Assembly: GCA_017624155.1 (NCBI GenBank)
Contig: JAGANS010000053.1
Coordinates: 1 to 45,396, forward strand
Length of the DNA: 45,396 nucleotides
Source of the DNA: Muribaculaceae bacterium
GTDB lineage: Bacteria > Bacteroidota > Bacteroidia > Bacteroidales > Muribaculaceae
Direction of reading: 5' to 3'
This document shows positions 10,443 to 13,566 of the stretch, piece by piece; position 1 is the first letter of the stretch; every line of letters starts with the position of its first letter. The position numbers and the translations under genes are program-made. The notes beneath the pieces were generated by a model, which saw nothing but the letters and a program-made list of their open reading frames with translations, did no database searches and was not told where the DNA came from.

Positions 10443-11417
10443 ATGAAGAAAACATCAGCTATTATAATGCTTGTGACATTAGCCGCCGCGGCTACCTCGT
10501 GTTCAGTCCTCAATCCGTCGAAGAAATCAGGCGCCAGCACGACCTCGGGCGCCCAGGCCACTAAAATCGAATCTACGGCCCGGCCCGAGACGACAACAGA
10601 GAATAAGAAGCCTGTAAGCCAGGCAGCCGAGGCCGCCAATCCCGAGGCCGTAAAGCAGTCGGTGCCTGCTCCCGCCGTATCCAAAATCACCATGAATACC
10701 GGTGTGGCGCGCCGGCTCGGCGGTGAATGGACCATAGTTCAGGTCGGCGCCACGGCCATCGACCGCGACGAGGATATGCCCTATATAATCTTCGAACCCT
10801 CTACGGCGCAGTTCTATGCCAATAACGGCTGCAATACCCTCAATGGCACTTACGCGGTCGATACCGACGACAATGTGACGTTCCACAACATACTGTCGAC
10901 ATTGCGCATGTGTTCCGACGTCGAATTTGAAAATCAGATCAATTCCATCATCACCGAGAATGTGCCCGTCAAGGTGCGTCTCAGCGAGGTGGGACAGGAA
11001 AGCTTTGTAGAGTTTATCGGAACTCAGGGCAAGCCTCTCATGCGTATGCGTCGGGGCAATCTTGAATTCCTCAACGGCCATTGGAATGTGGAGTCGGTAG
11101 CCGGGCTCAGCAAGCTCGCGGCTCCTGCCGACATCTTCTTCGATCTCGGCGAGCTCAAGCTCAACGGCGACACCGGCTGCAATATCGTTAACGGCAACAT
11201 CTATCTCGACCACCGCCAGTCGAATGCCATCGACTTCTCCAACATGGGTACCACCCGTATGGCGTGCCCGCCTCAGATCGAAAAGCAGCAGACTGCCATC
11301 CTCGTGGCTCTCGAGGAGACCGCCACAGCTATCAGCGACGGCAAGGATAAGGTGATGCTGCTCAGCTCCGACGGCCGCATCCTCATGACTCTTGTGCGTG
11401 CTCCGAAGGCTGAATAA
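10443..11417 (+). CDS. Double META-domain lipoprotein
   Basis: Probable envelope lipoprotein of unknown function. I chose the ATG at 10443 because it gives a lipoprotein signal (MKKTSAIIMLVTLAAAATSC, Cys20); a frame open from 10380 adds a non-signal stretch. The 324-residue product has a low-complexity Thr/Ala/Pro linker (about 21-95), then two META domains: one with GGEWTIVQVG and FYANNGCNTLNGTY, a second with NGHWNVESVAG and NGDTGCNIVNGN. META domains occur in HslJ-type heat-shock and secreted proteins and their biochemical role is poorly defined. Two repeat copies precede it and an intrinsic terminator follows. Confidence 0.88.
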   Translation: MKKTSAIIMLVTLAAAATSCSVLNPSKKSGASTTSGAQATKIESTARPETTTENKKPVSQAAEAANPEAVKQSVPAPAVSKITMNTGVARRLGGEWTIVQVGATAIDRDEDMPYIIFEPSTAQFYANNGCNTLNGTYAVDTDDNVTFHNILSTLRMCSDVEFENQINSIITENVPVKVRLSEVGQESFVEFIGTQGKPLMRMRRGNLEFLNGHWNVESVAGLSKLAAPADIFFDLGELKLNGDTGCNIVNGNIYLDHRQSNAIDFSNMGTTRMACPPQIEKQQTAILVALEETATAISDGKDKVMLLSSDGRILMTLVRAPKAE

Positions 11418-11442
11418 GAGATCAGAATATATAATTTGACAA

Positions 11443-11486
11443 AAGGCAGGATGCTGTATATTACTGCGGCATCCTGCCTTAATTTT
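11443..11486 (+). terminator. Intrinsic terminator after META gene
   Basis: AAGGCAGGATGC (11443-11454) and GCATCCTGCCTT (11469-11480) form a perfect 12-bp stem with a 14-base loop, followed by AATTTTG. It separates the META gene from the TIR gene, so the latter needs its own promoter. Confidence 0.85.
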
Positions 11487-11504
11487 GTGATTTTTGAAAG
11501 AAAA

Positions 11505-11536
11505 ATTGACGGTTATGAAAAAAATAAGTATCTTTA
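11505..11536 (+). promoter_or_regulatory. Candidate promoter of the TIR gene
   Basis: ATTG at 11505-11508 and TATCTTTA at 11529-11536 are spaced by 20 bases; the -7 box differs from TAnnTTTG only in the last base. It lies 28 bases before the ATG at 11565 and supports a monocistronic, independently expressed gene. Confidence 0.55.
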
Positions 11537-11564
11537 CCCCATTATTACCACATATCGGAACGCT

Positions 11565-12752
11565 ATGCAGAAAAAGTTTGTCGCTTTCATTTCGTATTCG
11601 CGCAAGGATAAGACTATAGCCGACTGGCTTCACGCCAAGCTCGAGCGCTATGTGCTGCCATCCAATATAGACATAAAGAGTGTATTCCCTTTTGAGGGAA
11701 AATACTTCAGACCGGTTTTTCTCGACACACAGGATCTGCATGTCGAGGAGCGCCCATTTACCGACCGTATACGCGACGGGCTTGAAAATGCCTCGTTCCT
11801 GATAGTGCTTTGCAGCAAGAACTCGGCGCAGTCGGATTTTGTCGACAAGGAGATACGATATTTCCTTAAGGTACACGATAATAATTATTCGCGTATAGTG
11901 CCGCTATTTATCGACGAGGTCGATGGCAGTATCCCGCCTGCCCTGGCGTCAACATCGATAATGGAACGTCACTTTCCGATTTTCAACAGTCGTCTGGGCA
12001 AAGACAGCGAGGCCAACAACTACTGTTTTTATCAGATTATCTCATATATACTAAATATCGATTTCTCCACGATATACAACAGATATGAGATATATGCCTC
12101 GCACAAGCTCAGGGTACGAAAAAGAAGATACATTTCGGTCATCATCGCGCTGGTGGCAATGCTGGCCATTCTGGCCGGCTATCATTATAAATTCAAGGAG
12201 ATGAACGAGACTGCCCTGCACAAGAAGCAGGAGCTCATCGACTTTGAGAAAAAGGTCTTTCCGGCGGCTGTTGTCGAAGGCTATGAGAAGAATTTTCTCA
12301 GTCCGGTGATTTCATATCTGAAGGAGTCGCCCGAACCTTTCTGTATCTATATCCTTATGCCTAAGCATGAACGTGATCTCACGCACACTGACCGTGTGGG
12401 CGACTTTGCCTATATGGCCAAGTCGGCGTACGGCATGGATTCAATTCCGTATGAATTGCTGCCGACCAAGACGCGCCGCGGCAGCCGTATAATGCGAATA
12501 TCCATGAACGGACACTTGCTCGACGGCATATACCTGGATTTCGCCACTACCACAACTTCGTTCCTGCAGATAGCCAAATATAAGAAACGCAACGAGGCGT
12601 ATGAGGATGTGCCGATCGACTCACTTATCAACGAATACTCAATGGCTTTTATCGCCGAGACAAATGACAGACTAAAGGAGGATTCCGTTCACGTGAAGTT
12701 CTTCCTGGACAAGAAAGACTTGCTCGAGGATCTGAAGCATCGGCTGCAGTAG
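11565..12752 (+). CDS. TIR-transmembrane-STING-like protein (orphan cyclic-dinucleotide sensor candidate)
   Basis: Candidate immune effector of 395 residues. I chose the ATG at 11565, where the TIR domain begins directly (MQKKFVAFISYSRKDK). Residues 1-150 are a bacterial TIR domain: FISYSRKD strand, FLDTQDL, and the helix SDFVDKEIRYF whose Glu96 is the likely NADase catalytic residue. A basic stop-transfer patch (RVRKRR) and one hydrophobic helix (about 189-206) follow. Residues 231-395 resemble the prokaryotic STING fold: helix VVEGYEKNFLSPVISYL, strand CIYILMP, an Arg-rich hairpin (304-311), then LDFATTTT with Asp325 and Thr328/329, like the D-x-P-T-T ligand motif of bacterial STING, and a final acidic helix. 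The STING call is from motif memory, not alignment. No CD-NTase gene is adjacent. Confidence 0.68.
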   Translation: MQKKFVAFISYSRKDKTIADWLHAKLERYVLPSNIDIKSVFPFEGKYFRPVFLDTQDLHVEERPFTDRIRDGLENASFLIVLCSKNSAQSDFVDKEIRYFLKVHDNNYSRIVPLFIDEVDGSIPPALASTSIMERHFPIFNSRLGKDSEANNYCFYQIISYILNIDFSTIYNRYEIYASHKLRVRKRRYISVIIALVAMLAILAGYHYKFKEMNETALHKKQELIDFEKKVFPAAVVEGYEKNFLSPVISYLKESPEPFCIYILMPKHERDLTHTDRVGDFAYMAKSAYGMDSIPYELLPTKTRRGSRIMRISMNGHLLDGIYLDFATTTTSFLQIAKYKKRNEAYEDVPIDSLINEYSMAFIAETNDRLKEDSVHVKFFLDKKDLLEDLKHRLQ

Positions 12753-12823
12753 TCATGCCGCTATGCGTGAACCATATACCACGGTGAGATTTAAAGTTTG
12801 AAATATTTTGATAAATATTTGGA

Positions 12824-12862
12824 TTGACAGGAGAGGAATGTGAGTTTAAATTTGTAAATTTG
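12824..12862 (+). promoter_or_regulatory. Candidate promoter of the dedA-rpe operon
   Basis: Two tandem TAAATTTG boxes lie at 12847-12854 and 12855-12862. The first has a TTG at 12824-12826, 20 bases upstream, as a -33 element. The start codon follows at 12895. The rest of the 142-base gap holds nothing I recognise. Confidence 0.55.
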
Positions 12863-12894
12863 CATTTCTAAATCACGTAACACGCACCCAGGAT

Positions 12895-13566
12895 ATGCTT
12901 GACCTTTTTGTCCCGCTGGCGATTTTCGACGCCGCCTCGTTTTTTCAATGGTTTGTTGAAAATGCGTCGTATTGTTTTGTGTTCATCTTCATGGTGATCG
13001 AGAGTTCATTTATCCCGTTCCCGTCGGAGGTCGTAGTGCCGCCGGCAGCCTATCTTGCCGCCCAGCGCGGCGATATGAATATCCTGATGGTGGTGCTTGT
13101 GGCCACGGCCGGTGCCATCGTGGGTGCTCTCATCAACTATTACCTGTCGCTGTGGATCGGACGTCCGCTTGTCTATCGCTTCGCCAACTCGCGCTACGGA
13201 CATGCCTGTCTCATCGACGAGGCAAAGGTGGAGAAGGCTGAGAAATATTTTGACAAGCACGGTGCTATATCCACTTTCATCGGTCGTCTTATCCCGGCGG
13301 TGCGGCAGCTTATCTCCATCCCCGCCGGCCTTGCGCGCATGAACGTGGGAATATTCGTTATATTCACCGGCCTTGGCGCCCTTGTATGGAACGGTGTATT
13401 GGCCTGGCTGGGGTATTGGCTGGCTCAGTGGGTACCCCTCGACCAGCTGTTTGCTACCGTCGAAAAGTACAATTCATATCTGTCGTATGCCGGCCTGTTT
13501 ATAGGCGTAGTGTGTGTGGCGTTTATTGTCTGGCGACTCATTAATCCCAAAAAGAAAGCAGCATGA
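12895..13566 (+). CDS. DedA-family membrane protein
   Basis: Polytopic inner-membrane protein of the DedA/SNARE-associated family, whose members are lipid scramblases or transporters such as undecaprenyl-phosphate flippases. The 223 residues show the family signature: an early helix with ESSFIPFPSEVVVPPAAYLA (acid plus FPSE), the amphipathic segment AEKYFDKHGAISTFIGRLIPAVRQLISIPAGLARM with its paired conserved arginines, and several hydrophobic helices, ending in a basic tail (INPKKKAA). The stop overlaps the rpe start (ATGA). Substrate cannot be told from sequence. Confidence 0.92.
   Translation: MLDLFVPLAIFDAASFFQWFVENASYCFVFIFMVIESSFIPFPSEVVVPPAAYLAAQRGDMNILMVVLVATAGAIVGALINYYLSLWIGRPLVYRFANSRYGHACLIDEAKVEKAEKYFDKHGAISTFIGRLIPAVRQLISIPAGLARMNVGIFVIFTGLGALVWNGVLAWLGYWLAQWVPLDQLFATVEKYNSYLSYAGLFIGVVCVAFIVWRLINPKKKAA

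Follow-up and report, generated by a model that had tools for sequence, protein, structure and literature searches.

A gene in Muribaculaceae codes for a single polypeptide in which a TIR domain at the N-terminus, one transmembrane helix and a C-terminal domain follow each other, and this last domain is almost certainly a remote homologue of the bacterial STING domains. It comes from a contig of Muribaculaceae bacterium (GCA_017624155.1, contig JAGANS010000053.1), whose positions 1 to 45,396, on the forward strand, make up the stretch analyzed here, hereafter the window. Bacterial STINGs are regarded as sensing, in the cytosol, the product of a partner CD-NTase. Here a STING is joined via a single helix to another TIR family, and this combination lies in three different neighborhoods in which we found no such partner. 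Our literature search, in which subscription journals were thinly covered, returned no description of a TIR-TM-STING protein, and the term itself was absent from it. The features discussed below are collected in the table.

Features of the TIR-TM-STING gene and its upstream region (positions in the window)
Feature	Positions	Strand	Remarks
TIR-TM-STING gene, 395 aa	11565..12752	+	relatives: P0002, L019/L020 pieces
Terminator-like hairpin 3' of META gene	11443..11480	+	16 pairs, 8 G-C; consensus match only
Possible Bacteroidota-type promoter element TATCTTTA	11529..11536	+	pattern match only
TIR_2 domain (PF13676), residues 8-127	11586..11945	+	Pfam E 6.2e-17
Glu96, candidate catalytic glutamate of TIR NADase	11850..11852	+	within FVDKEIRYF
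Basic patch before helix, residues 181-188	12105..12128	+	15 residues preceding the helix contain 6 K/R and 1 acidic residue
Single predicted transmembrane helix, residues 190-208	12132..12188	+	hydropathy 2.1
Predicted STING domain, residues 229-374	12249..12686	+	profile alignment
Asn243-Phe244	12291..12296	+	aligned to the Asn that contacts phosphate and the Phe/Leu that stacks on the base in bacterial STING
Arg305 and Arg308, putative lid	12477..12488	+	Arg305 at the Arg153/Tyr235 position of FsSTING/PcSTING by hhalign
Asp325-Phe-Ala-Thr328-Thr329	12537..12551	+	aligned to D-F-P-N/T-T motif (Asp169 of FsSTING)

STING affinity of the C-terminal domain

In a phmmer search against all PDB sequences a sole entry matched at E<=1, namely 6wt4, which is a bacterial STING (E 2.2e-4, residues 235-341), and a two-row profile retrieved the same single entry (E 0.0037). 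The Pfam model prok_STING (PF20300) did not match the window protein at E<=1, nor did a separate search at E<=0.001. As the domain is missed by this model, we used PF20300 to gather reference STING domains, which yielded 16 from 15 of 395 Bacteroidota genomes. Against these, a three-row profile of the domain gave an hhalign score of 64.7 (probability 96.8%, P 2.7e-10, 136 columns), the controls being 28.0 for the best of 200 column shuffles and 13.5 for the reversed profile. Used as single sequences, the window protein, its relative from genome G020 and a fragment from genome G313 scored 46.2 (93.2%), 55.4 (95.8%) and 33.4 (69.1%); the most divergent Pfam-recognized STINGs, L040 and L041, scored 64.3 and 54.3 against the rest when treated likewise. 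Of the two pieces of the G313 relative, L020 overlaps L019 with differences, and for this reason it was excluded from A3-A5 and from the STING profile.

The reverse search of the 395 Bacteroidota genomes with the three-row profile recovered, besides the window, G804 (E 1.9e-5) and G962 (E 3.2e-4), with E-values that are per genome, such that about 0.4 chance matches at E<=0.001 are expected overall. Both matches are two-helix TM-STINGs, and both genomes are among the 15 found by PF20300. In pairwise comparisons L038, L037 and L036 headed the 16 references for the window domain (scores of 99, 92 and 87, the next being 59), standing 10.7 to 11.2 standard deviations above 1000 shuffles. They were also the top three for the G020 protein (5.7-9.0 standard deviations) and for the G313 fragment (4.2-6.8), whose scores are weak (54, 70 and 60 versus shuffle maxima of 53, 59 and 66). 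The profile comparison likewise gave 57.3 with six two-helix STINGs versus 38.9 with eight proteins of the TIR-STING group, four of them Pfam-scanned and the other four grouped by eye. A tree of the STING domains, weakly resolved with 2 of 16 inner branches well supported, agrees with the TM-STING affinity and places the three TIR-TM-STING proteins on a long branch.

The sequence-only reading had described this domain as STING-like and had named a prokaryotic STING profile as a check. The description was upheld by the PDB search, the profile comparison with its shuffles, the reverse search and the pairwise scores, whereas PF20300 gave no match. Pfam's STING model thus overlooks genuine members. 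Two matches of the STING profile at the level of the order were rejected: L024 (E 4.2e-4), a long ORF with what we take to be the look of a RelA/SpoT synthetase, and L025 (E 8.8e-4), a 55-column match with an internal stop.

All the motifs read earlier from the letters are present, namely VVEGYEKNFLSPVISYL, CIYILMP, an arginine cluster (RRGSR, 304-308) and LDFATTTT, the latter within YLDFATTTT (323-331). The roles of the Asn, Phe/Leu, Asp and Thr ligand contacts in bacterial STING have been described (PMC8748872). Asn243-Phe244, Arg305, Asp325 and Thr328/329 are retained wherever a relative covers the site: the window protein, its G020 relative and the L020 piece all have NFL, while the L019 piece does not reach that position. 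Thr328 and Thr329 are three and four places after Asp325, at the sites of known Thr contacts, and DFATTTT is invariant in all three proteins, Ala replacing the Pro of the D-x-P-T/N-T motif. The conservation of Asp325 and Thr328/329, on which the case for STING had been staked beforehand, therefore extends to 3/3.

The lid is more divergent, and its register is agreed upon by hhalign and one MAFFT alignment, with phmmer and another MAFFT alignment shifting it by one to three residues. An RX(Y/F) lid marks the class I STINGs, which bind c-di-GMP (PMC8748872). No R-x-Y/F occurs in residues 300-325, and hence class I binding of c-di-GMP is not predicted. As for the RXR lid of class II, the Arg151 position is occupied by Thr/Val or a gap according to hhalign and one MAFFT alignment, the other alignments differing in register; the second lid Arg of class II is probably not kept. 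Arg304 is replaced by Lys in G313.

Architecture, topology and known systems

The N-terminal TIR domain with Glu96, which had been recognized from the letters, is matched by TIR_2 at 62.7 bits against a curated cut-off of 28. ThsB_TIR matches the same stretch, and there is no further Pfam match at E<=1 in the 395-aa protein; the best stretches of all six PADLOC and NCBIfam matches are likewise the TIR part. The Pfam model CAP12-PCTIR_TIR (PF10137) has no match in the window protein. By analogy with the TIR family Glu96 is a candidate catalytic residue, and the domain is likely to be an active enzyme.

The segment 190-208 is the only one of 19 residues with a mean hydropathy above 1.6 in the window protein; the earlier call of a basic patch and one helix thus stood, with the bounds of the helix changed from 189-206. 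Across all three proteins the helix has a mean hydropathy of 2.1-2.5, with six K/R among the 15 residues that precede it and three to four after it. A point that goes beyond the sequence-only reading is that a lone helix should leave the two domains, TIR and STING, separated by the membrane, provided that the helix spans it. Together, the basic patch and the need of a TIR domain for cytosolic NAD+ point to a cytosolic TIR and a periplasmic STING, an orientation that we favor to a modest degree. The K/R before the helix outnumber those after it by 2 in the window protein, by 2-3 in the three proteins and by 3-6 in 11 related proteins with other C-terminal parts (TIR_2-TM-X). To our knowledge the described STINGs are cytosolic, and a periplasmic one would lack any precedent known to us.

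Bacterial STINGs have been described as TIR-STING or TM-STING, along with a few fusions to other enzymes (PMC10732462), the TM-STING being called Cap13 in PMC12421889. The window protein resembles the TM-STINGs (FsSTING 6wt4, L036-L038) in that their STING domains are its closest, in having a helix before STING, and in its Arg-rich lid, Y-x-D-F and conserved Asp and Thr. However, the six two-helix STINGs have two hydrophobic segments, and four of four scanned with Pfam are devoid of a TIR, whereas the window protein has one helix and an N-terminal TIR_2; its STING match begins at about residue 229-235, farther from the helix than in the two-helix proteins, and it keeps the RXR lid at best by half. 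The two predicted helices of bacterial TM-STINGs should keep their STING in the cytosol (PMC10732462). Like the classical TIR-STINGs (Cap12; SfSTING, PcSTING), the window protein has its TIR effector and its STING in a single polypeptide, the TIR coming first. In contrast to its PF13676 domain and helix, these proteins have PF10137 (four of four scanned) and no hydrophobic helix; they also have the RX(Y/F) lid of class I and mostly adjoin a CdnE, neither of which was found for the window protein. TIR and STING are also combined in one chain in the oyster Crassostrea gigas, where they are reported to be an independent animal fusion (PMC10732462).

The kind of TIR, the placement of a single helix and the K/R before it are shared with the TIR_2-TM-X proteins, which differ in having a C-terminal part that is CarboxypepD_reg-, WD40- or RHS-like where Pfam matched, rather than STING. 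One helix is present in 11 of 14 TIR relatives: L003-L008, L012-L014 and L016 from Muribaculaceae and L010 from another family of the order. The topology table was confined to these 11, some of whose ORFs are cut by locus ends, leaving out L009 and L011, in which no helix exceeded the threshold, and L015, in which two did. Their helix starts at ORF residue 182-210 and has 3 to 8 K/R in the preceding 15 residues. The C-terminal parts of the eight scanned with Pfam (all but L005, L012 and L014) are CarboxypepD_reg-like in four (one of them above the Pfam cut-off), WD40-like in one, RHS in one and unmatched in two. CarboxypepD_reg-like and RHS domains are usually extracytoplasmic, WD40-like repeats less typically so. 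Domain types that usually lie outside the cytoplasm thus follow the helix in 5/8 scanned relatives, in two of these five above the Pfam cut-off, which speaks for the periplasmic orientation. L013, in which the helix is followed by WD40-like repeats, comes from the same genome as the window. Given their very different C-termini, the TIR-TM-X proteins give the impression of a family of transmembrane TIR receptors in bacteria.

Since the nearest STINGs are TM-STINGs and the TIR belongs to a Pfam family other than that of the TIR-STINGs, the TIR_2-TM-STING fusion looks to be independent of the classical one. The simplest history would be that a TIR-TM unit gained a sensor of the TM-STING type.

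Ligand source, mechanism and rival readings

The Pfam model SMODS gave E 0.0059 for L027 and no match for L038; being a poor detector of STING-type cyclases, its absence counts little, and we therefore built a CdnE profile (A6) from seven STING-associated cyclases, each of which it recovers in leave-one-out searches at E 7e-63 or better (7/7). The absence of a neighboring CD-NTase, which had been claimed, holds: the profile has no match in the window or in loci L020-L022, so that by this profile, unlike in CBASS, no CD-NTase shares the operon. The suggestion that the ligand source be sought elsewhere in the genome led to no STING-type CD-NTase, as SMODS has no CD-NTase match in the window's genome (87.8% complete) and the CdnE profile none in G000, G020 and G313 (88, 88 and 57% complete), SMODS being the model by which other cyclase clades were covered. 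Run on 10 genomes, the profile matched two, G804 and G806, which supply rows to it and hence are no independent control. Its matches in 3/247 Muribaculaceae genomes are independent, and each adjoins a STING-domain gene, in L077, L078 and L079 (G185, G165 and G129), whose start resembles the classical TIR-STINGs. Normal STING CBASS pairs thus exist in the family, and the three genomes with the TIR-TM-STING gene show none. The G129 and G165 loci look like duplicates of each other, and their CdnE match has one internal TGA.

All five genomes with Pfam-recognized STINGs that were searched whole (G1058, G1047, G962, G955 and G1002) are without a match to the CdnE profile, which suggests that orphan STINGs may not be rare. 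The STINGs in question are L034, L036, L037 and L040-L042; L035 (G1017) was outside that search. A further TIR-STING-like protein, L033, has no long ORF before it in 3.4 kb, with WD40-like and TIR-like frames on the opposite strand (by eye). As for other cyclases, GGDEF has no match in the window's own genome, which contains one DAC domain (c-di-AMP cyclase).

Our preferred reading is that of a one-chain, membrane-anchored receptor and effector, and for this account as a whole, comprising ligand, clustering, NAD+ cleavage and topology, we would put the probability at about 0.45. A cyclic dinucleotide or related small ligand would bind in the dimer cleft of STING via Phe244, Arg305, Asp325 and Thr328/329, whereupon the dimers would close and then cluster in the membrane. 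The TIR domains, gathered in the cytosol through the helix, would cleave NAD+, and its loss would stop or kill the cell, probably in defense against phage or another insult. In SfSTING the ligand closes the lid, the dimers form filaments and the activated TIR cleaves NAD+ (PMC9402430); in the present protein we infer that ligand-driven clustering of STING might unite TIR domains across the membrane, and that it could serve in abortive infection. If STING lies in the periplasm, its ligand should come from outside or from damaged neighbors, and not from a partner enzyme of the same operon. We entertain, tentatively, an outward-facing STING that reads external cyclic dinucleotides, for instance from lysing neighbors or other gut bacteria, and signals to the cytosolic TIR. 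Such a protein would be comparable to a Toll-like receptor of animals whose ectodomain is a STING, and the role of bacterial STING would then go beyond that of an internal CBASS effector. With this topology, STING sensing would be separated from self-made signals, providing a testable instance of transmembrane STING signaling in bacteria.

A receptor that is membrane-bound but wholly cytosolic, the helix only dipping into the membrane or the chain being otherwise arranged, would instead sense a cytosolic dinucleotide, e.g. c-di-AMP made by the DAC enzyme of the cell itself or the product of a CD-NTase missed in an unassembled region. This would conform to the cytosolic location of described STINGs, as generally known, and to the modest charge bias across the helix; the genome being 87.8% complete leaves room for a missed enzyme, a DAC-domain gene is at hand, and ElSTING has been reported in complex with c-di-AMP (PMC12421889). 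Nevertheless, the 19-residue segment, with its hydropathy in all three proteins, looks like a normal bitopic helix, no STING-type CdnE was found in the three genomes, and MySTING binds c-di-AMP and 3'3'-cGAMP weakly or not at all (PMC8748872), and we hold such an arrangement to be rather unlikely. More doubtful is a STING fold retained without dinucleotide binding, which would serve to form dimers or filaments or would sense some other envelope or phage signal, with the TIR doing the killing. The Thr/Val or gap at the Arg151 position, the divergent lid, the failure of PF20300 and the lack of a detected cognate synthase speak for it, as does the fact that relatives combine similar TIR_2-TM units with C-terminal domains of quite different kinds; the retention of the aligned ligand residues wherever they are covered, with DFATTTT invariant, speaks against it. 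That the domain is not a STING at all, its similarity arising by chance or being limited to a few motifs, could appeal to PF20300 and to the weakness of the G313 fragment when taken alone (69.1%, and pairwise). The PDB search, hhalign, the reverse search and the pairwise scores agree, however, and the profile alignments, 136-137 columns long, take in the ligand residues, rendering this reading highly improbable.

Genomic setting and distribution

The ATG at 11565 is consistent as a start with the relative P0002. That the gene is a lone one between META and dedA agrees with what had been read from the letters: the flanking genes are META and VTT/DedA by Pfam, dedA begins at 12895, 142 bp downstream, and the gene seems to stand alone, with the hairpin between it and the META gene. 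Terminator-like sites in 11300-13000 numbered three, against 1.4 expected in shuffles. PADLOC has no match in the adjacent META and dedA proteins. Among the genomes of the genus, 45/49 have dedA, and with a view to the gene possibly being cargo at a shared hot spot we compared the window with 29 other loci. rpe follows dedA in all 29 and FtsK is present in 27; since the conserved dedA-rpe pair lies downstream of the window's gene, contamination is unlikely. Neither META nor the TIR-TM-STING gene precedes dedA in these 29 loci, within a flank of about 1.5 kb that contig ends cut in some; a DEAD helicase is present there in one. The ten of 29 flanks that were listed are variable, at least L046 and L052 having a similar gene. 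The G+C content is 47.2% for the gene versus 54.9% for the window, and 35.3% for the G020 gene versus 45.6% for its 20.5-kb locus, and this low G+C in both suggests acquisition by horizontal transfer.

The three-part architecture, whose conservation had been singled out beforehand as a check, recurs in relatives: the TIR_2-TM-STING protein is present in three Muribaculaceae genomes, namely the window's genome, G020 (396 aa, 63%) and G313, where an N-terminal piece is one of two contig-end pieces (L019 and L020) over which the relative is split. The overlapping, non-identical STING stretches of these pieces may reflect two copies, a strain mixture or contig-end errors. Carriers amount to 3/397 genomes of the family and to 0/222 of those at least 90% complete, the carriers themselves being 88 (the window's), 88 and 57% complete. 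Samples of 393 order and 395 phylum genomes held no further such protein, and viral contigs, plasmids and phages gave no relative of the STING domain; six plasmid matches to the whole protein cover residues 2-173 at most, i.e. the TIR part. When genome contigs were scanned by pattern, a method limited to close relatives, the G020 and G313 relatives were recovered. The G313 pieces have genes for an RyR-domain protein and a PrsW protease beside them, one at each. In G020 the neighborhood comprises LicD and sugar-transferase genes upstream and a metallo-beta-lactamase-fold protein downstream (L021:10550-11872; Pfam 22.4 versus a cut-off of 22.7 bits), which starts 15 bp after the G020 gene and has a weak PADLOC match to LmuA (E 9e-6).
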